22,001 nucleotides of DNA from a virus (IMGVR_UViG_3300031566_000413:1-22001), one strand, 5' to 3'. Positions 1,462 through 14,407 are shown, counted from the first letter of the stretch. A program made the numbers and translations. Notes: generated by a model not told the origin, from the letters alone.

Positions 1462-3204
1462 ATGGCCGAATACCCATCTAACAGTGCGACCCCCGTATAT
1501 TATGCAGAATTCAGACAGAAGGTACTTGCGGGCGAACTCCCCATTTGCCGAGAGATCTCCTTAGAGATGAATCGAATAGATCGTCTTATAGAGGATCCCA
1601 GATATTACTATGATCCGGCTCCAACGGAGGCCTTTATACGGTTTTGCGAGAACGAACTCACAAAGACCGACGGATCGTCGTTAAATGTCCTGGATTCGTT
1701 TAGACTATGGGTAGAGCAATTGTTAGGTTGGTATTATTGGTCTAAAAGAAATGTCTATAACGAGGAAACCAAGGACTTCGAGGAACAGATATATTTGAAA
1801 CGTTTGGTTAATAAGCAGTATTTAATAGTGGCTCGTGGTGGAGCTAAATCGATGTATGCCGCCTTTATACAGGCATATTTTCTGGTCGTTAGCGGTGAAA
1901 CAACGCATCAGATTGCAACGGCGCCAACCATGAAGCAGGCAGAAGAGGTCTTAGGCCCAATACGGACGGCTATGATTCGTCGACCCGGCCCACTTCTCAA
2001 TTTCTTAACGACGGAAATGAAGGGACTTAATTCAAGTCGTTCTAACTATAATACGCAACTTGCTGCTACCAAAAGGGGTATTGAATCATTCATTACTAAT
2101 TCACTTTTAGAAATTCGTCCTATGACAATTGATAAACTACAAGGGTTAAGACCAAAGATCTCAACATTGGATGAGTGGTTGTCGGGCGATATTCGTGAAG
2201 ACGTCGTCGGCGCCGTTGAACAGGGGGCTTCTAAGTTAGAAGACTACATTATTGTGGCCGTAAGTTCAGAAGGTACTGTTCGTAATGGCTCTGGAGACGA
2301 GGTTAAGCTTGAACTGAAGAAGATTCTTAATGGAGAATACATAGATCCACACACATCCATATTCTACTATAAAATAGACGATGTAAGTGAGGTTGGAGAC
2401 CCCGCTATGTGGATTAAGGCGCAGCCAAACATTGGTATTACCGTGTCCTATGAGGCATACCATAAGGATGTACTTAGGGCCGAGAACGCACCGTCTACCA
2501 GGAATGACATCCTTGCTAAACGGTTCGGATTACCTATGGAAGGTTATACATATTTCTTTACATATGAGGAAACTATTCCACACGAGAACGTGGGATCCTT
2601 TGCTGACATGGAGTGCGCCGTAGGCGCGGACCTATCTCAAGGGGATGATTTCTGTTCATTTACCTTTATGTTTCCATTTCATGAGGGACCGTTCGGGGTT
2701 TTGTCTATAAATTTTATCTCAGATAGGACTTATAGACTTTTACCTGCAGCTGCTCGATTTAAATACGATCAATTCATAGCAGAAGGTTCCCTTATCGTTA
2801 TGGAGGGGAGTGTATTAGAGATAGATGAGGTGTATTATGTCTTGGATGAGGAGATAGAGAAAAGAAGATTCGAGGTTATGGCCATGGGATACGATCCCTA
2901 TAATTCCGAGGTCTTTGTTAAGCTCTGGACTCAAAATTACGGACCCTTTGGGGTTGAGGTAGTTAAACAGGGTGTTAGAACAGAGTCGGTTCCTCTCGGA
3001 GAACTTAAGAAACTCTCTGAAGATAGGATGCTTTTGTTCGATCAAGAGATCTTTAGTTATGCGATGGGTAATGCTATGGTTATGCAAGACACAAATGGTA
3101 ACATAAAACTATTTAAGCGTCGATACGAGCACAAGATAGATCCAGTAAGTGCTGCAATGGATGCTTATGTAGCTATACAAAGGAATCCGGAGATTTTCAA
3201 ATGA
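1462..3204 (+). CDS. terL: Terminase large subunit
   Basis: This 580-residue protein is the ATPase-nuclease motor that translocates DNA into the prohead and cuts it. The N-terminal ATPase half shows a Walker A-like loop VARGGAKS (residues 123-130), which ends in the usual K-S but has Ala where a Gly is normal. It is followed by the adenine/coupling segment TAPTMKQAEEV and a Walker B site STLDEW (234-239, with D237 and E238). The nuclease half has the RNase H-like acidic residues in GADLSQGDD (D390), GYDPYN (D478) and the C-terminal helix KIDPVSAAMDAY (D560 or D567). The length is normal for the family. The gene starts 3 bases after the upstream stop with only a weak AGGGG, suggesting coupled translation, and its stop overlaps the next ATG. 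Confidence 0.95.
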   Translation: MAEYPSNSATPVYYAEFRQKVLAGELPICREISLEMNRIDRLIEDPRYYYDPAPTEAFIRFCENELTKTDGSSLNVLDSFRLWVEQLLGWYYWSKRNVYNEETKDFEEQIYLKRLVNKQYLIVARGGAKSMYAAFIQAYFLVVSGETTHQIATAPTMKQAEEVLGPIRTAMIRRPGPLLNFLTTEMKGLNSSRSNYNTQLAATKRGIESFITNSLLEIRPMTIDKLQGLRPKISTLDEWLSGDIREDVVGAVEQGASKLEDYIIVAVSSEGTVRNGSGDEVKLELKKILNGEYIDPHTSIFYYKIDDVSEVGDPAMWIKAQPNIGITVSYEAYHKDVLRAENAPSTRNDILAKRFGLPMEGYTYFFTYEETIPHENVGSFADMECAVGADLSQGDDFCSFTFMFPFHEGPFGVLSINFISDRTYRLLPAAARFKYDQFIAEGSLIVMEGSVLEIDEVYYVLDEEIEKRRFEVMAMGYDPYNSEVFVKLWTQNYGPFGVEVVKQGVRTESVPLGELKKLSEDRMLLFDQEIFSYAMGNAMVMQDTNGNIKLFKRRYEHKIDPVSAAMDAYVAIQRNPEIFK

Positions 3205-4439
3205 GTTACTTTGGTTTACACCTACAAACACCAATAAATGAATGGGATAGTGAGTTACTTTACGCAGCCGAGGAAGGAAAACCATACAGATTGGCTAAGT
3301 TCTTTTGGGTCGAAGCGGGAATAGTTGTAAAACATGTATCACCAGCGACAGTAACCGTTTTTAGACATTACTGGGCTCATCAGCAGCCTTTCCTGGACAG
3401 AGCACTCGTCTCGCCTATGGAGGCGGATGCGGCCGCCGACCAGTACATCGCAATGTTTAAGGATTCTGTAAATCAACATGGAAACATTGATTATGTTGAA
3501 TCTTTAAACGAAACCTATCCATCAAGAGACTTACTTGCGCAACAAAAGGCCGTTGCATTTGACAGAGCGTTCATTCGCCGACTTAAAGTACACTGCCCAG
3601 CTACGAGACCGGTGGTGTATAATGCTCCACCAGGAAACATTGACCACGACGAGTATGCAGTTCTGATTGACTTAGCCAGAGATTGCGAGGCGGCCGGAGG
3701 AGCATTCGGTTACCATAACTATTGGAGTGTTGTCAATAAACATAGTTACGTAGGTTCTCCTGGACACGCGCGCGACTATCAAATGAGATGGTCGGATACC
3801 CTCGACGAGTATCTAGTAGATAGAGGGATTAGAGTTAACTACATCTTGGGCGAAAGCGGTCCTATTGGGGCCGGGCCAGATGGATACTGGCAAAAACCTA
3901 ATGACGGTTGGAAGATGTATACCGTTTGGGATGGAGATATAGACGGTTATATGAGTGATCTTGTGACTATGGAGGAACTATTTGGGAGTTCTAGGGCAGC
4001 AGAAGAGGGTCGTTTAATAGGTGCTACATTGTTTACTAGTGGCAACGGAATTGGTTGGGAGAACTTCTTAGTTGACTTTCCTCTTCTTGGTCGTATAACT
4101 GATCATGTAATTAACTATAGTGGACAAACTGGTCCGCTGCCTCCATTACCACCAATAGTAGATGAGTTTGAAGAAGCCGCTTGGAACCTCACTACTGAAA
4201 TGCAGAGAACTGGTCAAAATGGTATTAGATTGAACGCCCTTGCGGGAATTCAACAAAGGATTAAGCAGGATAATCGCATAGATCGGACGGATTATCAGAT
4301 CGTAACCTCAGAAGCACAGCTTATCGACTTCACGGTGAACAAGACTGTGCAGGCAGCAGAGTCGTTGAGCGGTACCTTTCCTCGGCGTGTGTATGTTTGG
4401 ACGCCAGGACAGGAGATATACTATTATGAAAATCCTTGA
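3201..4439 (+). CDS. TIM-barrel glycosidase-like endolysin part
   Basis: This 412-residue protein looks like a (beta/alpha)8 glycoside hydrolase of the GH-A clan type. NE at residues 103-104 (ESLNETYP) fits the acid/base position at the end of strand 4, YHNYW (171-175) is an active-site aromatic stretch, and E218 in LGESG fits the nucleophile on strand 7. A proline linker (312-318, PLPPLPP) leads to a C-terminal module (about 320-412) rich in AAWNLT, LNALAGIQQRI and RVYVWTPGQEIYY. From memory that module also occurs in bacterial proteins that carry an M23 peptidase afterwards. No signal peptide is visible, so export would need a holin. The frame stops at TGA 4437-4439 but remains open after it into an M23 domain, so this may be the short product of a bifunctional lysin. 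The substrate (peptidoglycan or another surface glycan) is unknown. Confidence 0.7.
   Translation: MSYFGLHLQTPINEWDSELLYAAEEGKPYRLAKFFWVEAGIVVKHVSPATVTVFRHYWAHQQPFLDRALVSPMEADAAADQYIAMFKDSVNQHGNIDYVESLNETYPSRDLLAQQKAVAFDRAFIRRLKVHCPATRPVVYNAPPGNIDHDEYAVLIDLARDCEAAGGAFGYHNYWSVVNKHSYVGSPGHARDYQMRWSDTLDEYLVDRGIRVNYILGESGPIGAGPDGYWQKPNDGWKMYTVWDGDIDGYMSDLVTMEELFGSSRAAEEGRLIGATLFTSGNGIGWENFLVDFPLLGRITDHVINYSGQTGPLPPLPPIVDEFEEAAWNLTTEMQRTGQNGIRLNALAGIQQRIKQDNRIDRTDYQIVTSEAQLIDFTVNKTVQAAESLSGTFPRRVYVWTPGQEIYYYENP
4411..4428 (+). promoter_or_regulatory. Shine-Dalgarno and ATG inside the glycosidase end
   Basis: AGGAG at 4411-4415 is 10 bases before an ATG at 4426-4428, a good initiation site overlapping the last codons of the glycosidase gene. 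Translation from it runs in the frame +1 relative to the M23 domain and ends at a TAA at 4510-4512 after 28 codons. It could serve the M23 domain only with a -1 shift or if one base is missing upstream of about 4463. One more G in the run 4458-4460 would join this start to the M23 frame. Confidence 0.4.
4437..4439 (+). other. In-frame TGA between glycosidase and M23 domain
   Basis: This TGA, followed by A, is the only stop between 3201 and 4902 in this frame; the combined frame would encode 567 residues with TGA as codon 413. An 8-base spacer is followed by a small stem, ACCCA 4448-4452 with TGGGT 4457-4461 around a CGCT loop. TGA ends many other genes here in ATGA or TGATG overlaps, so it is a normal stop in this genome and not a reassigned codon. 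Confidence 0.7.
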
Positions 4440-4904
4440 AGAGAGGAACCCACGCTTGGGTGGCCATTATATGGAGAAAAACAAACCTACTTTGCTTCTT
4501 GGGCTATTTTAAATGCCCCGAGAGACTATGATGGTGATGGCGAGCGTGACGATAAACACGAAGGGTTAGATTTTGAGGCCCAAATAGGCGATAGAGTCCG
4601 GGCTTGTCAGGATGGATGTGTTCTCTGGGCTAGTAATCAGCGTAGAGACGGCTTGGGTCCTTCTTTATATGGTAATCACATTGTTATAGAACACCATGAT
4701 GGTATTATAGTCTGGTATGCTCATCTAGATGACATGTTAAGTGCGGTAGGAGATATTGTCTTTAAAGGTGAGCTAATCGGTTTTGCAGGTAATACTGGAG
4801 GATCCACTGGACCCCACTTACATTTAACTGTACAACACATCGGTTATGGTATGGAGGGTTTCGTAGTTCCCGATGTTGTAGATCCACGTGATTACTTGTA
4901 TTAA
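4440..4904 (+). CDS. M23 zinc peptidase (LytM) domain, start unresolved
   Basis: The frame following the TGA at 4437-4439 encodes a complete M23 metallopeptidase domain that would cut peptide cross-links in peptidoglycan. It begins TLGWPLYGEKQTYFASW, then has the Ca-like acidic loop DYDGDGERDDKH. The zinc-site residues follow: HEGLD (4557-4571) for the first His and Asp, WYAHLD (His at 4722) and HLHL (from 4815). GNTGGSTGPHLHL is the classic family signature. No ATG, GTG or TTG lies in this frame between 4440 and 4652. The ATG at 4653 would discard the HEGLD ligands and leave a non-functional fragment, so I reject it as the true start. The domain is therefore made by stop read-through, by a shifted start at 4426, or is split by a mutation. 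It ends with TAA at 4902-4904. Confidence 0.8.
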   Translation, partial: REEPTLGWPLYGEKQTYFASWAILNAPRDYDGDGERDDKHEGLDFEAQIGDRVRACQDGCVLWASNQRRDGLGPSLYGNHIVIEHHDGIIVWYAHLDDMLSAVGDIVFKGELIGFAGNTGGSTGPHLHLTVQHIGYGMEGFVVPDVVDPRDYLY

Positions 4905-4924: not shown

Positions 4925-5764
4925 ATGTCTAAAAAAGATAAACCGATTATCCTAGCAGTCAGTAGTGACCAACATGCCGGCTCAACTGTGGGCCTCTTTC
5001 CATCTTCTATTACTCTAGACGATGGGGATCAGCATCGCCCAAGCCCAGCTCAGAAATGGATGTGGCGCAACTGGCTGTTTTATATTTCAAAAGTTAAATC
5101 ACTCGCGGCCGATTACGATACTAAATACATTGCGGTTCTTGATGGTGATGTGATAGAAGGAAACCATCATCGAACAGCACAGGTTGTTTCAAGCAACGAA
5201 ACAACCCAAATGCGCATAGCAGAAGCGGTATTGAATCCGTTATTGCAAGACGCGGACCAAGCATATTTCCTTCGCGGTACGCCCGCGCACGTTGGAGAAC
5301 AAGCAAGATTAGAGGAAAAAGTAGCCGAGAATTGGACTAATACAGTCAAAGACGGTGAGAATTTTACCCGTTGGCAACTAATGTTGGATGTCAACGGCAC
5401 CATATTTGATATTGCACACCACGGTTCAATTGGACGTTTACCCTGGACCAAGACAAATTCAGTCGGTAAAATAGCAGTTGGAGCTATTATAGATGCCTAT
5501 GAAAACTTTAAAAAAATTCCAAACGTTGTAATTAGAGCCCATTTTCATCAGTATATAGACTCTGGTGAGAATTTTAGACGAATTAGAGTTATTGGCATGC
5601 CCGCCTGGCAACTTATTACTGGATATGTTAATAAGAATAATCCTGGCGCAGTTGCCGATATAGGAGGTCTTATATTTGTGTGTTGGCCAGATAAAACTTA
5701 TGATTTAGATGTGGTTCGGTTTTTCCCTAGACCTTCCCCACCGGTAAGGGTTAGATCATCATGA
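4925..5764 (+). CDS. Calcineurin-like metallophosphoesterase
   Basis: This 279-residue protein has the two-metal phosphoesterase motifs in order: SDQH (D15, H17), LDGDVIEG (G74, D75, E78), RGTPAHVGE (117-125) replacing the usual GNH block, a HH pair (165-166) in AHHGS, and HFH (206-208). These are metal ligands of the calcineurin superfamily, which hydrolyses phosphomono- or diesters; the phage members have no agreed substrate and could act on DNA ends or nucleotides. AGGAG at 4910-4914 is 10 bases before the ATG. The gene lies 20 bases after the M23 frame and overlaps the next gene by ATGA, so it belongs to the late operon. No signal peptide is seen, so it acts inside the cell. The superfamily is secure; the role is not. 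Confidence 0.85.
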   Translation: MSKKDKPIILAVSSDQHAGSTVGLFPSSITLDDGDQHRPSPAQKWMWRNWLFYISKVKSLAADYDTKYIAVLDGDVIEGNHHRTAQVVSSNETTQMRIAEAVLNPLLQDADQAYFLRGTPAHVGEQARLEEKVAENWTNTVKDGENFTRWQLMLDVNGTIFDIAHHGSIGRLPWTKTNSVGKIAVGAIIDAYENFKKIPNVVIRAHFHQYIDSGENFRRIRVIGMPAWQLITGYVNKNNPGAVADIGGLIFVCWPDKTYDLDVVRFFPRPSPPVRVRSS

Positions 5765-6013: not shown

Positions 6014-6298
6014 ATGGAAATGTCACAAGTATGGCCGTGGGTCTTATTGGTTACTGGTATATTTGCTCGTATTCTTGTCCCGTTCTTGATTGAACGGAGA
6101 GAGAATCCTAGTTTAACATGGGACATGAAGTATGTGTGGCCCCAGATAATTAGTTTTGTGATTATAGTGCTTATGTTGCCCGTAATAATTCCCGATTTGG
6201 AAGGCATATCTAGTTTGGCCTTTCAAGCCGCGTTTCTTGTAGGCTGGGCCGCTGGCGACATAGGTAATGTTGGTAGAAAATTTTTAACTAGAACATAA
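6014..6298 (+). CDS. Small membrane protein, candidate holin
   Basis: This 94-residue hydrophobic protein has three probable membrane segments: about 6-25 (VWPWVLLVTGIFARILVPFL), 43-60 and 66-84 (with AAFLVGWAAGD). A short charged loop (26-40) separates the first two, and a basic tail follows the last. Size, topology and position a few genes after the glycosidase and M23 domain fit a class I holin, which would release the lysins that lack signal peptides. There is no sequence motif that proves a holin, so this is inference from context. AAGGAG at 6002-6007 favours the ATG at 6014 (6-base spacing) over a second in-frame ATG at 6020. Confidence 0.6.
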   Translation: MEMSQVWPWVLLVTGIFARILVPFLIERRENPSLTWDMKYVWPQIISFVIIVLMLPVIIPDLEGISSLAFQAAFLVGWAAGDIGNVGRKFLTRT

Positions 6299-6316: not shown

Positions 6317-9300
6317 ATGGCCACCCTCAATAAAACATTTCCCTTTGCCACGACTCTTGAGGGATTCACCGGAGTACCCTTTGGCACTTCAATGACCATG
6401 TCTTATGATGGTACTTATGGTAATCCTTCGGGTTCGTTAAAATCGCGAAACGTAGGCAGAAACAAAGCAGGAACGTCATACTGGGAGTGGACCGGAACCT
6501 GGGAAGATTTAGGTATAACTCCTGGAACCACAATAGACCAGGTAAGAATAAATAACGGGGATAATCAGTGTACAGAATGGAATGTTGGTGACGCCGCCAC
6601 CATTGGTCCATATTCTATTTATAACTCTGCGGGAGACGTTCTCATAGCTACTTTATGGGCCGGAAGATCTCCCACGGGCGTAGAAGGAAGCTGGACCTCG
6701 ATAGGTAATCAAGCCTATCAAGCAATTGGCGCCTCGTATCAGGCTAGTAATACTAGCATTAGAATACGTCTGTACAATACTTCCGATCTTGGTAATAACC
6801 CAGCTGCGGCACAAACATTTTACGACGATAACATATCCTTAGATATTGATTATGTAGCCGGGTCAGATGACTTAACGGCTGTCGGCATCACCGCTAATCC
6901 GGTTGTAGGAACGCCAGCTATTGGTCAAGAACATGTCCTTACAGCGGCTGGCATTACTGCTAATCCGGTTGTAGGAATACCAGTTCTTCTTCTTATATTT
7001 ATCTTGACATCTGTGGGAATCCTAGCTACTCCGGTACTAGGTACGCCGACTATAACTCATATTCACGTCTTAACGGCGACGGGTATCACAGCTGATCCGG
7101 TTGTAGGAACGCCTACCCTGAGTTCTGGATCGGCAAATTCCCCAGTAAGAGAGCAGAACAAAGACCATTGGTTTAGCGGTGATTTACCTGATACTGTGGC
7201 ATTTGATGAGGCCGTAACCGAAGGGTCGCTTTTGGTTGTGTGTTTTAGCGGGTACTTAAATTCCAGTACAAACGCGATTACTATATCTGACGATAAAGGA
7301 AATACCTGGCAAGCTGCAGAAGAGGGGTACTCTAACGGCTCATCGATGGCTGGTATTTGGTATGCGAAAAACGCGGCCGCCGGGGTCACAACTCTTACAA
7401 TTAATGATACTGAAGATCAGACGTGCTTCTTGCTGGTTGTTTTAATTGAGTATAGTAATGTAAATACAACAGCACCGATTGATCAGAGTAACGAAGCAAT
7501 CGCGAACAGTGCAAGCTGGGACAGTGGAGACGTAACAACAACACAGGCAGATACTGTATTAATTGGTGTAATGGGCCAGGACTCCGCCACCCGCACATTA
7601 ACAGAAGATTCTCCCTGGGTTCTAATCTTTAAGGAAGAAGACCAGGGTAGTTATACTCCGATATCGGTGAGTGAGATAATTGCCACGTCTACACTTACAG
7701 ATGCTTATACTGGTGAAATGGATGGCATCGCTATGTGGTATTCGGCTGTGGTGGCATTCAAGGCGGCCTCAGCAACTGACGACCTTGTCGCCGTCGGTAT
7801 CACAGCTAATCCAGTTGTAGGCACACCCACTCTTACTCGTATCTCTAATTTAACGGCGACAGCTATTACAGCTGATCCAGTTCTTGGAGTTCCTACAGCA
7901 GCAGAAGAGGGCGGGAGTCCTGCTGGTGTTAAAGTAGCCACAACCAGAGTTGCTTGCAAAACGACTACTGGACTCCAAACCATTACCACAACTGATCTTG
8001 GTGGTCTGACACCTACCGCCGCTCTGCTGATATGCACGAATGCAACCGCTGACGGAACAGCAGCAGATCACGCTAGAATATCGATAGGTGCTGTTGTTAG
8101 TGCAACTGAGCGATGGGCAATTAGTTCTAATGACGATCATGGCGTAGCTACAGCCTTATCGGTTAGGAGAATGACCGAAGACGAAGTTGTAATGATGGTG
8201 GCCTCTGGTGGTGGAGGCACTGTTGAATTTGAGGCCGACTTCGATTCTTGGGTAACAAATGGGATGGTTATAGATTGGGGTTCGACTAACCCTTCTAGCG
8301 GCTATCTACTGACCGTCATCTTCTTTGCGGGTTCTGACGTGGTTGCCCATGCTGATACTGTGTCACTACCAGCAACAACGGGGGTAAATACGGATGTAAC
8401 GGCTCCTGGATTTGAGCCAGCTTTTGTGATTTTCGCTAGTACTAGATCAGCCATAAACGACGAGGTGAACACCAACTTTGCCCTCAGTTTTGGAATTGCC
8501 GCCAATGATGGCGCTGATACAAACTTTTCTCTCAACCTCTCTGGTGCAAATAGCGCACTGACTAGCGAAAATGCTGTTCTCGCGATCAACGATAGTATTC
8601 AAGAAAACCTTTTTCAAGGAAACGTCTATGGCGGTCATTATGTGGATACTTATGACGCAGACGGATTTACTGTTCGGTGTATAAGAAATGGTGGTGGCGA
8701 TTCGCCGTATCTTGCTATCGGATTCGGTGGTGCGGTAGATGTTTGGCTTGGTGACATTTCGACTCCTATTAGCACAGGGGACGATGTGGAAACTGGCCCA
8801 GGATTTACACCGCAAGCCCTTATCGGCGGGTTAAATTATTCTAGTTCCGGTTTCCAAGGTGGAGCGACTCCTTCAAATGACGTTGAATCTATCTATTCAG
8901 CAGGGATTGGAATAGCAACGCCAACTGCCGAGTATAGCAACGTCGTTACGTCCGAAGATGCCGCTGACACAATGAATACTCAGTCGTTATCTGATGACGT
9001 TTTTGCTAATGTTCAACCGCATATAGGTGGTACGGCTCAGGACATTGTTGGCACAGGGCCAGCGGGAGCAGGATCGTTTGACGCCAGTGGGTTTACATTG
9101 AACTATTCGGCAGTTGATGTAGTAGATAATCACCCGTTCTTCGTTCTGGCGATTGAGGCGGAGAGTGATGGTGACAACGATCTTACTGCTGTCAGTATCA
9201 CAGCTAATCCGGTCTTAGACACGCCCTCAATAGGGCAAAAACACCTCTTAACGGCTACGGGTATCACAGCTAACCCGGTGCTTGGAACGCCGACTATAGG

Positions 9301-10411
9301 TCGAATTTCCAACCTAAACCCCGTCGATATTACTGCTAATCCGGTCCTCGGAACCCCGACTATAACGCATATTCATGTATTAACTGCTACAGGTATTATT
9401 GTTAACCCGACACTTGGTACGCCAGTTTTGGGTGCAGAAGGAGAAGATAGTCTTGAAGCTGTTAGTATTGTTGTTAACCCGGCACTTGGCACTCCCGCGC
9501 TCGCGCAAGAGCACGCCCTAGGCGCTGTCGGTATTACAGCCGACCCAGTAGTCGGAACGCCGTCTATAGAACGTATATCCAACTTAACGGCCACAGGTAT
9601 TACAGCCGACCCAGTAGTCGGAACACCGACTATAGGACGGATACCAAACTTAGATGCTGTCGATATTGTCGCCAGTCCCGTGCTTAGTGTACCAACCGTG
9701 AGCCGGGTTTCTAATCTAATCGCGGTTGGTATTACAGCTAATCCGGTGTTAGATACACCGTCTATAGGCCAGACGCACGTCTTAGATGCTGTCGATATTA
9801 TTAGTACTCCGGTCCTTGGAACACCGGTTTTAGGCTCAGAAGGAGAACATACTCTTGAAGCTGTCGGTATAACATCGGATACAGTAGTCGGAACTCCAGC
9901 GATAGGACAGACACATGTGGTGTCATCCGTTGGAATTTCAACAACTCCTGTGACCGAGACCCCAACCATAGCGTTGGTTCATATATTGAATGCGACTAGT
10001 ATTACAGCCACCCCGGTAGTTGAAGAGTCAGCGATAGGACAGACACACGCGCTATCACCAACTGATATTACAACAACTCCTGTTGTGGGTGCACCGATAC
10101 TGAGTCCCATTTGTCATCTAGACGCGACCGATATTACAACAACCCCAACGGTTGAAACCCCAACGATAGGACAGACGCATGTATTAGACGCGACGACTAT
10201 TATCGTTTCGCCTATATTTGGTGTCCCAACGATAGGACAGACGCATGTTCTTAGTGCGGAGGGGATAACAACTACTCCAGAACTCGGGGTAGCTAGTTGG
10301 GAATTGGTTGATGGTGAAGTCATTGTAACATTCAGTGCCTTTCCGTCCCCAATGTTGTTTACCGTTCTTCAACCCGAAATTGAATTTAGTAAAGTATACA
10401 CGGAGGATTAA
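6317..10411 (+). CDS. Large repeat protein, probable virion surface fibre
   Basis: This 1364-residue, beta-rich and mostly acidic protein has no enzyme motif. An N-terminal beta-sandwich-like domain (about 1-185) is followed by four 22-residue repeats (186-269) with consensus LTAxGITANPVVGTPTIGxxHV. Next come a globular domain (about 270-488, containing DDKGNTWQAAEEGY and GIWYAKNAAAGVTTLTI), two more repeats (490-533), and a region (about 534-953) that seems to hold three related beta domains. Seventeen repeats (956-1328) precede a short tail. The DNA period is 66 bases. AAGGAG at 6303-6308 is 8 bases before the ATG. Length, repeats and neighbours (lysis genes before, small structural genes after) suggest an adhesin or head or tail fibre. 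Without a known receptor-binding domain this remains an inference. Confidence 0.7.
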   Translation: MATLNKTFPFATTLEGFTGVPFGTSMTMSYDGTYGNPSGSLKSRNVGRNKAGTSYWEWTGTWEDLGITPGTTIDQVRINNGDNQCTEWNVGDAATIGPYSIYNSAGDVLIATLWAGRSPTGVEGSWTSIGNQAYQAIGASYQASNTSIRIRLYNTSDLGNNPAAAQTFYDDNISLDIDYVAGSDDLTAVGITANPVVGTPAIGQEHVLTAAGITANPVVGIPVLLLIFILTSVGILATPVLGTPTITHIHVLTATGITADPVVGTPTLSSGSANSPVREQNKDHWFSGDLPDTVAFDEAVTEGSLLVVCFSGYLNSSTNAITISDDKGNTWQAAEEGYSNGSSMAGIWYAKNAAAGVTTLTINDTEDQTCFLLVVLIEYSNVNTTAPIDQSNEAIANSASWDSGDVTTTQADTVLIGVMGQDSATRTLTEDSPWVLIFKEEDQGSYTPISVSEIIATSTLTDAYTGEMDGIAMWYSAVVAFKAASATDDLVAVGITANPVVGTPTLTRISNLTATAITADPVLGVPTAAEEGGSPAGVKVATTRVACKTTTGLQTITTTDLGGLTPTAALLICTNATADGTAADHARISIGAVVSATERWAISSNDDHGVATALSVRRMTEDEVVMMVASGGGGTVEFEADFDSWVTNGMVIDWGSTNPSSGYLLTVIFFAGSDVVAHADTVSLPATTGVNTDVTAPGFEPAFVIFASTRSAINDEVNTNFALSFGIAANDGADTNFSLNLSGANSALTSENAVLAINDSIQENLFQGNVYGGHYVDTYDADGFTVRCIRNGGGDSPYLAIGFGGAVDVWLGDISTPISTGDDVETGPGFTPQALIGGLNYSSSGFQGGATPSNDVESIYSAGIGIATPTAEYSNVVTSEDAADTMNTQSLSDDVFANVQPHIGGTAQDIVGTGPAGAGSFDASGFTLNYSAVDVVDNHPFFVLAIEAESDGDNDLTAVSITANPVLDTPSIGQKHLLTATGITANPVLGTPTIGRISNLNPVDITANPVLGTPTITHIHVLTATGIIVNPTLGTPVLGAEGEDSLEAVSIVVNPALGTPALAQEHALGAVGITADPVVGTPSIERISNLTATGITADPVVGTPTIGRIPNLDAVDIVASPVLSVPTVSRVSNLIAVGITANPVLDTPSIGQTHVLDAVDIISTPVLGTPVLGSEGEHTLEAVGITSDTVVGTPAIGQTHVVSSVGISTTPVTETPTIALVHILNATSITATPVVEESAIGQTHALSPTDITTTPVVGAPILSPICHLDATDITTTPTVETPTIGQTHVLDATTIIVSPIFGVPTIGQTHVLSAEGITTTPELGVASWELVDGEVIVTFSAFPSPMLFTVLQPEIEFSKVYTED
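6872..7123 (+). repeat. Repeat block 1: four 66-bp units
   Basis: Units begin at 6872, 6938, 7004 and 7070, each encoding 22 residues of the form LTAxGITAxPVxGTP. The second unit has lost its tail (VLLLIFI), and the third carries TITHIHV, which recurs in block 3. Confidence 0.9.
7784..7909 (+). repeat. Repeat block 2: two 66-bp units
   Basis: Units begin at 7784 and 7850 and encode LVAVGITANPVVGTPTL and LTATAITADPVLGVPT. They link two globular regions of the fibre-like protein, which suggests that the repeat acts as a spacer. Confidence 0.85.
9182..10300 (+). repeat. Repeat block 3: seventeen units of about 66 bp
   Basis: Units start at 9182 and continue to the last at 10250. Fifteen of the first sixteen spacings are accounted for by 66 bases except two units of 72 bases (those ending in LGAEGEDS and LGSEGEHT), which exactly explains the 1068-base distance. 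Two neighbouring units share 29 identical bases (9530-9558 and 9596-9624), so duplication has been recent in places. Later units are more diverged, with ITTTP replacing ITANP. Confidence 0.9.
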
Positions 10412-12424: not shown

Positions 12425-14407
12425 ATGCCAAATTCATATGACTTTAGTGGTATTGCCACTGCATATGATGTTCTATGTCAAGACGGGCGAATTATTATGC
12501 CCGGAGCTTTTAACCACCAAGAGGGAGAAGTTATCCCTATGGTATGGAGACACGGACATGATGACATTCGAAATACTCTTGGACATGCGATTCTAGAAGC
12601 TAGTGAATCACCGGCCGGTATGCGGATTAAAGCATTCTTTAATAAAACCGATGAGGGCCAGCGCGCTAAGATTCTTGTTCAAGGTAAAGACATTCGTCAT
12701 TTGTCCATTTGGGCTCATAAATTGACTGAGAACCCAGCTATGCATGATGGCAAACAAGTTAGACAAGTCAGACTGGGCACTATTAGAGAGGTTAGTCTCG
12801 TTTTCGGAGGAAAGAACCCCGGTGCCTATATCGATGACGTCGTAAGACATTCGAACGATCCGCTAGATCCAGACGGAATAGTCGAGGACGGAATTATCAT
12901 CCACACGATTTATGAGGTCGAGGTTGAAGAACCCCAGCCCGAACCAGAGGTCGAGCCGGAACCCCAGCCCGAACCAGAGGTTGAGCCGGAAGAGACCGAG
13001 GATGGAATTCAACACGAAGACGAGACTGTAAGGGATATTTTGAAGACCCTTAACTCGGATCAGCAAAACTTATTCAATATCATCCTGCACGCGGCCGCGT
13101 TGGGAGAGAAAACACCCCCCACAAAATCTAGCGGCGAAGAAGGTGCTGGACCCACGGTTAGAGAGGTATTTGAGACCCTTTCTGACGAACAAGCAAATGT
13201 ATTGTATTATATGGTCGACGGAGTCGACCCAGAACAAAACGTATCACAAGGAGATTCCGACCCTATGCCAAAAGACACCCACAACATTTTCGAGAAAGAT
13301 GGTAACGAGAAAGACGAGACTGTTCTAATGCACGAACAGGCGTTGAACGTTCTCGCCAACGCCGTTAAAACACGCGCTTCGTCATTGAAGGGCGCTTTTA
13401 TGGCTGCGGAGGAAACCCTTTCTCACAGTATTACTGATATTGACTTTATGTTCCCCGACGCGAAGAACGTCGAGGCTGGTGGACCACAGTTCTACTCCCG
13501 TCCAATGGAATGGGTCGAGAGTGTTCTTAACGCCACTAAGAAAAGACCCTTCTCTCGTATTAAGAGCATGTATGCTGACCTGACTGGTGCGGACGCCCGC
13601 GCGAAAGGTTATGTAACTGGTAATGAGAAGGTCGAGGAAGTGATCGCTGTATTGAAGCGAGTTACGACTCCTCAGACCATCTATAAGCTCCAGAAGCTTG
13701 ACCGGGACGACATCATCGACATCACAGATTTCAACGTTGTGGTGTGGCTGAAAGGCGAAATGCGGATGATGCTTCGAGAGGAGCTTGCTCGCGCTATTCT
13801 GATCAGCGACGGACGTGCAGATACTGGCGATGATGCCATCATCTCAACAAATGTTCGGCCGATCTATAATGATGCTGCGGTTTATAACGTTCGCGCCATC
13901 TATAATGATGCTAGCAATGAGACAGCTGTTACCGCGATGACCGACGCTGAAGCATTGGCGTTCATCGATTTCATTGCTAATCAACGTCAGTACTACCGTG
14001 GCTCCGGTAGCCCCATATTATATACCCAGCCCGAGGTATTGAGCCGCCTGCTTCTGATTCGTGATACCGACACTCATCGTATCCATCGCACTGAGGCGGA
14101 ACTCGCTTCCGCAATGCGTGTTAGTGCTATCGTTGAGGTACCTCCAATGTCCGGAATGTCCGAGGCGGGTCAGGTCAATCCTGCGGGACTTCCTGCGGGA
14201 ACTTACACCATCGAAACCGTTGGCGTTATTGTCAATTTGAACGATTACGTCATTGGTATGGATTCTGGTGGACAAACGGCTTTCTTTGATGACTTCGATC
14301 TTGACTTCAATAAGTACACTTACCTGTACGAAACTCGGCTGTCTGGCGCTTTGGTAAATCCGAAGTCCGCTATCACAATCGAGAATGTCACGGCGAAGAC
14401 CGCATAA
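12425..14407 (+). CDS. Prohead protease-scaffold-major capsid fusion protein
   Basis: This 660-residue protein joins three head functions. Residues 1-150 are an HK97-family (S78) prohead protease: WRHGHD (41-46) holds the catalytic His and IREVSLV (S124) the Ser. Residues about 155-280 look like a scaffold: an acidic Pro-Glu tandem repeat, then two related helices, TVRDILKTLNSDQQ (from 201) and TVREVFETLSDEQ (from 244). Residues from about 281 (MPKDTHNIFE) are the HK97-fold major capsid protein, with ending sequences FDLDFNKYTYLYETRLSGALV. Such fusions are known in some siphoviruses. AAAGGAG at 12411-12417 serves the fusion start with 7-base spacing. An internal Shine-Dalgarno site and ATG at 13265 could give free capsid protein of 380 residues. 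Confidence 0.9.
   Translation: MPNSYDFSGIATAYDVLCQDGRIIMPGAFNHQEGEVIPMVWRHGHDDIRNTLGHAILEASESPAGMRIKAFFNKTDEGQRAKILVQGKDIRHLSIWAHKLTENPAMHDGKQVRQVRLGTIREVSLVFGGKNPGAYIDDVVRHSNDPLDPDGIVEDGIIIHTIYEVEVEEPQPEPEVEPEPQPEPEVEPEETEDGIQHEDETVRDILKTLNSDQQNLFNIILHAAALGEKTPPTKSSGEEGAGPTVREVFETLSDEQANVLYYMVDGVDPEQNVSQGDSDPMPKDTHNIFEKDGNEKDETVLMHEQALNVLANAVKTRASSLKGAFMAAEETLSHSITDIDFMFPDAKNVEAGGPQFYSRPMEWVESVLNATKKRPFSRIKSMYADLTGADARAKGYVTGNEKVEEVIAVLKRVTTPQTIYKLQKLDRDDIIDITDFNVVVWLKGEMRMMLREELARAILISDGRADTGDDAIISTNVRPIYNDAAVYNVRAIYNDASNETAVTAMTDAEALAFIDFIANQRQYYRGSGSPILYTQPEVLSRLLLIRDTDTHRIHRTEAELASAMRVSAIVEVPPMSGMSEAGQVNPAGLPAGTYTIETVGVIVNLNDYVIGMDSGGQTAFFDDFDLDFNKYTYLYETRLSGALVNPKSAITIENVTAKTA
12931..12990 (+). 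repeat. Tandem 30-bp duplication in protease-capsid linker
   Basis: Two adjacent 30-base copies differ by one base (C or T). They encode the Pro/Glu run PQPEPEVEPE twice, in the acidic region between protease and scaffold helices. The near identity points to recent slippage or duplication of a flexible linker. Confidence 0.9.
13248..13267 (+). promoter_or_regulatory. Internal ribosome site and start for free capsid protein
   Basis: AAGGAG at 13248-13253 is 11 bases before an in-frame ATG at 13265-13267. The product would begin MPKDTHNIFEKD and run to 14407 as a 380-residue capsid protein. Separate capsid proteins of this family often begin with Met and then HNVFE or similar, from memory, so the ATG falls where an unfused capsid gene would start. 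Confidence 0.5.
13850..13912 (+). repeat. 36-bp-period duplication in capsid gene
   Basis: The 27-base copies at 13850-13876 and 13886-13912 differ at four positions. They encode NVRPIYNDA and NVRAIYNDA, 12 residues apart, in the capsid domain after the helix with REELARAILISDGRAD. The last 15 bases (ATCTATAATGATGCT) are identical. Confidence 0.8.

Follow-up and report, generated by a model that had tools for sequence, protein, structure and literature searches.

An in-frame TGA between a putative glycosidase and an M23 peptidase in the lysin gene of related uncultured phages suggests occasional read-through

The window, that is, the complete 22,001-base stretch of DNA analysed here, is a phage record in which the TerL, lysin, holin-like, fibre-like, portal, protease-capsid and tape-measure genes lie on the plus strand. 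The lysin gene, which overlaps the TerL stop, starts at the ATG at 3201, preceded by a good ribosome site, and reaches an in-frame TGA after 412 codons. Searches for relatives with glycosidase, M23, TerL and linker queries detected five further members (L002, L009, L006, L008 and L010). The relevant features of the window are as follows.

3201..4439, plus strand: first ORF of the lysin gene, a probable clan GH-A (TIM-barrel) glycosidase by a weak fold match
Residues 1 to ~310 of the first ORF: glycosidase barrel part
Residues 320-412 of the first ORF: C-terminal module, common to L002, L008, L009 and L010
4437..4439, plus strand: in-frame stop codon TGA where the two domains meet, within CCT TGA AGA; TGA-AG is also found in L002, L009 and L006
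4440..4904, plus strand: same-frame extension, with an LGWP lead segment followed by an M23 metallopeptidase and a terminal TAA; under purifying selection
4448..4461, plus strand: short stem in the predicted fold, neither conserved nor exceptional
4452..4454, plus strand: ACG codon, a candidate non-standard start if M23 were initiated separately; aligns with an ATG in L002 (L002:3845)
4653..4655, plus strand: TTG, the first standard in-frame start past the TGA, within the M23 domain and 3' of HEGLD
6014..6298, plus strand: small hydrophobic protein downstream of the lysin, holin-like by eye and position

The small protein encoded at 6014..6298 has no family match of its own; the protein that follows M23 in L009 shows a weak holin match. 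Adjoining the lysin gene, positions 4925-5764 encode a possible phosphoesterase-like protein with no significant family match, and a longer phosphoesterase-like protein is encoded directly 3' of TerL in L008, L010 and L011. The 1364-residue product of 6317-10411, probably a fibre-like protein, consists mostly of degenerate units such as 'LTAVGITANPVVGTPTIGQEH', with no tandem repeat detected at the DNA level, and similar arrays occupy the same place in L006 (from 1517 on), L009 (6837-8885) and L008 (recognized via antisense shadow ORFs). The S78 prohead protease and major capsid region (12425-14407) is a single 660-residue ORF (phrog_3270, E 8e-166).

Translation of 3201-4904 yields 412 residues, the TGA, 154 residues in the same frame and a TAA. 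This bears out the preliminary description of the locus, according to which the glycosidase frame, closed by the TGA at 4437-4439, reopens without a shift into a full M23 domain that extends to 4904, with all the zinc-ligand motifs present and without an ATG, GTG or TTG before 4653. The motifs found are HEGLD, GPHLHL and the histidine of YAHLD. The TTG at 4653 is codon 72 of the extension, and a start at this codon would cost M23 its HEGLD motif. The TGA is indeed followed by A, the two bases next to it being AG. The short stem that had been pointed out at 4448-4461 is present in the predicted fold of the window and absent in the relatives, and the folds downstream of the junction are not exceptional (z of -1.44, 0.02, -2.03, -0.98 and -1.23 in five relatives), so that the stem is probably irrelevant; with no conserved stem at the junctions of the relatives, a conserved RNA structure was rejected as a stimulator. 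No SECIS-like element was recognized at the junction and there was no Rfam match; the site is a linker. From the window and L009, standard gene calling recovers no more than a truncated piece of M23.

The identity of the extension is clear: its residues 39-133 match the Pfam family Peptidase_M23 (PF01551) with 85.7 bits against a cut-off of 28.7 (E 2.5e-24), and the HxxxD and HxH zinc motifs are found in the window, L002, L009 and L006 as HEGLD (HEGVD in L006) and GPHLHL. Of the bifunctional glycosidase-M23 lysin initially proposed, the M23 half is thus supported by Pfam, whereas the glycosidase half lacks any Pfam, PHROG or NCBIfam match and has no homologue among 50,697 phage records. The AlphaFold model of the whole fusion, for which homologues are lacking, has a pLDDT of 34; the model of the barrel alone (pLDDT 47, pTM 0.53) has its best PDB matches among the GH53, GH5 and GH10 barrels, with E values of 4e-4 and weaker. 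The motifs SLNE104 and LGE218SG, present in the window and L002 and in differing forms in L009, fit the catalytic pair of clan GH-A. From these model-based matches and motifs, it is plausible that the first ORF encodes a clan GH-A glycosidase.

Evidence of translation upstream of the first standard start comes from the evolution of this part of the extension. Comparison of the window with L002 gives a dN of 0.34 with near-saturated dS for M23, next to a dN of 0.31 for the glycosidase. The segment ahead of that start (4440-4652) is equally constrained: it is 41/70 identical to L002, with a dN of 0.40 and a dS of 2.4, and shares 39 of 68 residues with L010; the changes are mostly at third positions, and both other frames are full of stops. 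Judging by these substitutions, the region is under purifying selection. Ribosomes must therefore be in this frame by the time they reach the conserved (L)GWP segment, 3-7 codons past the stop.

The in-frame TGA is known from at least four related uncultured phages, including the window. L002 is 63% identical to the window in the glycosidase, 61% in M23 and 87% in TerL; in L009, the identity is 55% in M23 and ~29% in the glycosidase, and the M23 domains of L002, L009 and L006 span 55-61% identity to that of the window. The junctions read as follows.

Window: GAA AAT CCT TGA AGA GAG GAA CCC ACG CTT GGG TGG
L002: GAA AGT CCT TGA AGA ATT CCG ATG TTA GGA TGG
L009: GAA GAA GGT TGA AGC GTT GGG TTT CTC GGG TGG
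L006 (contig end): GAA GAC CCC TAC CAA TGA AGC CTT TTG TGG

In all four members, TGA-AG lies in frame at the homologous domain boundary and M23 follows in the same frame, although these members are related, so that the counts are not independent. Counted from the TGA, the conserved W of the GWP/LWP motif is reached after 7, 6, 6 and 3 codons in the window, L002, L009 and L006, respectively, that is, every length change preserves the frame. The members differ in the availability of a start for the second domain. In L002, an ATG in the same frame is the fourth codon past the TGA (9 nt), exactly where the conserved LGWP segment begins, and L006 has a TTG three codons past the TGA (6 nt), whereas no ATG, GTG or TTG is found near the beginning of the extension in the window or in L009, the first one in L009 being at codon 45 of the extension. 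Beyond these members, the contigs L001 and L003/L004 (IMG/VR sample 3300031539) match the window at 99.95-99.97%, and the L003/L004 junction is identical to that of the window; because these contigs may share the sample of the window, they confirm the assembly and add no independent phage. A pattern scan of viral contigs returned only the known members plus chance matches, and no relatives were found among named phages or, by linker alignment, in bacterial genomes.

An open frame behind a stop codon is, by itself, a weak signal. Among the ORFs of at least 200 amino acids in the related contigs, 50 of 388 are followed by a same-frame open run of at least 120 codons, so that same-frame adjacency alone means little. 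Coding-strand runs of at least 120 codons nearly all have a start within 14 codons. One same-frame open run of 338 codons, at L038:841, has no start for 51 codons after the stop and may be a shadow frame. AG follows 8 of the 126 TGA stops in the related contigs, and three of these eight are in the lysin genes described here. What stands out in these sequences is the combination of four same-frame cases, spacer changes in threes, TGA-AG throughout and two members without a start. A run with homology but without a nearby start, as in the window and L009, is the unusual feature.

Two members show other arrangements. The L008 lysin (L008:4998-6860) has the same C-terminal module joined to a different barrel and a further domain, with no M23, and ends in ...IYYFEGVR-stop, with a TAA at the residue position where the others have TGA. 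Since this M23-less glycosidase ends at the same residue, the short product appears to be a complete protein. The barrel of L010 is of the L008 type, and its M23 is in the -1 frame. The zero frame of L010 ends with CAC CCT TTT TAG, where the C_CCT_TTT heptamer (5129-5135), an X_XXY_YYZ slippery site, lies directly 5' of the glycosidase stop TAG, with an SD-like AAGGAG 7 bases upstream. A -1 slip at this candidate site (CCCTTTTTAG, heptamer included) would read CCC TTT TTA GCC TGG (PFLAWP) straight into M23 and yield a fused product (...HPFLAWPILREKQ...) with a linker of similar length. The succession of an out-of-frame TGA-AGG, AAGGAG, C_CCT_TTT and TAG in L010:5114-5138 looks like a -1 frameshift cassette within the lysin gene, and the out-of-frame TGA-AG at 5114 is in the homologous place, which would fit a former in-frame TGA that a single-base change has left behind in another frame. 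In-frame heptamers of the C_CCT_TTT form occur at 0.39% of codons, which amounts to a 2-3% chance in the ~6-codon overlap. The frame change could also be an assembly error or a natural one-base deletion beside the old TGA, instead of programmed frameshifting. Unless this is so, fusion by another route, together with the absence of a standard start codon at the beginning of the L010 M23, favours selection for a fusion protein. It is conceivable, if rather doubtful, that this lineage of tailed phages has maintained a small amount of bifunctional lysin by recoding while the mode switched: the window, L002, L009 and L006 would rely on UGA read-through, and L010 on a -1 shift at CCCTTTT-TAG.

The most serious alternative to a fusion is that the glycosidase and M23 are two separate proteins, with M23 made by termination-reinitiation a few codons past the TGA, at the ATG in L002, the TTG in L006 and a non-standard codon in the window and L009. 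Coupled reinitiation is known to occur over distances as short as those of the L002 and L006 candidate starts (PMC10666635), and the window has, at the position of the L002 ATG, the ACG at 4452, with an SD-like GAGAGG ~5 nt upstream. However, the window and L009 offer no standard start, and in L009, ATA, ATT, ATC and CTG are missing before the GWP motif as well, the first of these codons being an ATA after GWP; no clear SD is present in L002, L006 or L009. Moreover, the frame is held through several changes of spacer length, which reinitiation does not require, and the L010 M23 frame can be reached only by a -1 slip. Given this balance, separate initiation throughout the group seems unlikely, though well worth considering.

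The other explanations fare much worse. In the preliminary description, a point mutation from TGG or CGA was named as the plain alternative; a broader form of it holds that the TGA is a recent nonsense mutation, a sequencing error or part of a decaying pseudogene, with M23 dead or near loss. L008 is a case of a glycosidase with no M23, but the same TGA recurs in the near-identical L003/L004 and at the homologous site of three diverged phages: a sense codon was sought there in L002, L009 and L006, and each has an in-frame TGA. The point mutation is accordingly rejected and a nonsense mutation or sequencing error is rejected on the same sequences; with the catalytic motifs all intact and a low dN/dS in M23, an accidental stop in any form is highly improbable. 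A lone in-frame TGA that runs into a conserved domain also has the look of a reassigned codon, and reassigned stop codons are established in phages (PMC9523058). That the phage or its host generally reads UGA as an amino acid (a code of the 4 or 25 type) is nevertheless very unlikely. As stated in the preliminary description, TGA is an ordinary stop elsewhere in the window, where it ends 8 of the 20 assigned genes, including TerL and several in which the next start overlaps, which speaks against reassignment; no other gene has an in-frame TGA inside a conserved domain, and the L008 glycosidase ends with TAA at the same place. There is hardly any chance that the two domains of the window are brought together by some other recoding event, be it a frameshift pair, bypass, transcript editing or an intron. 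CCT TGA does resemble the +1 shift-prone CCN UGA sites and L010 appears to use a -1 slip, but four members keep one and the same frame on both sides of the TGA, with no insertion between the domains. A +1 slip at the CCT TGA of the window was rejected, as it leads into the wrong frame, which stops at ~4511.

With a TGA in frame between the domains in four phages, two of which lack the usual second start, occasional read-through is the most likely explanation. The reading that we favour, with modest confidence and from sequence comparison, is that leaky read-through of the UGA yields a glycosidase as the major product and a glycosidase-M23 lysin as the minor one. Most ribosomes would terminate at 4437-4439, releasing the glycosidase with its C-terminal module, whereas in a minority, a near-cognate tRNA (tRNA-Trp being the likeliest) would decode the UGA and synthesis would run on to 4904, producing a glycosidase-linker-M23 protein of ~567 residues. 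Because the stop is at a domain edge, both products would be complete: the glycosidase with the C-terminal module, or these plus M23. The production of the fusion, the inserted amino acid and the roles of the two isoforms in cell-wall degradation are proposals, and the read-through level may, by analogy, be a few percent. UGA is the leakiest stop in Escherichia coli, where Trp is the amino acid most often inserted at it (PMC11126739). A scan of the window and the related loci, which are partial contigs, found no phage-encoded suppressor tRNA. The minor bifunctional enzyme made by read-through, as initially suggested, thus is the best-supported reading, with the reservation that, in L002 and L006, a candidate start just past the TGA leaves room for separate initiation.

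Several endolysin genes, such as those of Lys170, CTP1L and Cd27L, yield two products via internal start sites. Like the window gene as read here, each makes a longer and a shorter lysin with unequal sets of domains. Those products have the C-terminus in common, whereas the two products of the window gene would have a common N-terminus, and the longer one alone would carry a second catalytic domain. The lysin A of Gordonia phage Kenosha and the endolysin of Arthrobacter phage SWEP2 similarly have M23 in a lysin of multi-domain size, in or near the lysis cassette, but these are uninterrupted single ORFs with the matched M23 near the N-terminus, unlike in the window. In full-text literature searches, the coverage of which is incomplete, no case of read-through or programmed frameshifting in endolysins was found. 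A close parallel comes from the Q-beta coat/A1 gene, where UGA is decoded as Trp ~1 in 15 times, yielding a minor C-terminally extended protein (PMC8067240). Both are phage genes with a UGA at a domain boundary; A1 is an experimentally proven read-through product, a virion protein of an RNA phage, whereas in the window, the read-through that we infer would affect a lysis enzyme of a tailed DNA phage. In the tail assembly chaperones of the tailed phages lambda (gpG/GT) and P2 (E/E+E'), programmed -1 frameshifting at a site of the X XXY YYZ type gives a minor C-terminally extended protein (PMC3091744, PMC6316719); L010 shares this type of site, located before the glycosidase stop, although the lambda and P2 products are tail proteins and, in the window, no change of frame separates the extension from what precedes the stop.

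Most likely, the stop in the lysin gene is a variation on known recoding that involves no new principle. Read-through in phages is known mainly from virion proteins of small RNA phages. Gene callers split lysins of this kind or lose the second domain. If the proposed read-through is real, termination efficiency would set the dose of a second wall-cutting activity in a DNA-phage lysin, and the reason why phages limit their lytic enzymes could be put to a direct test.
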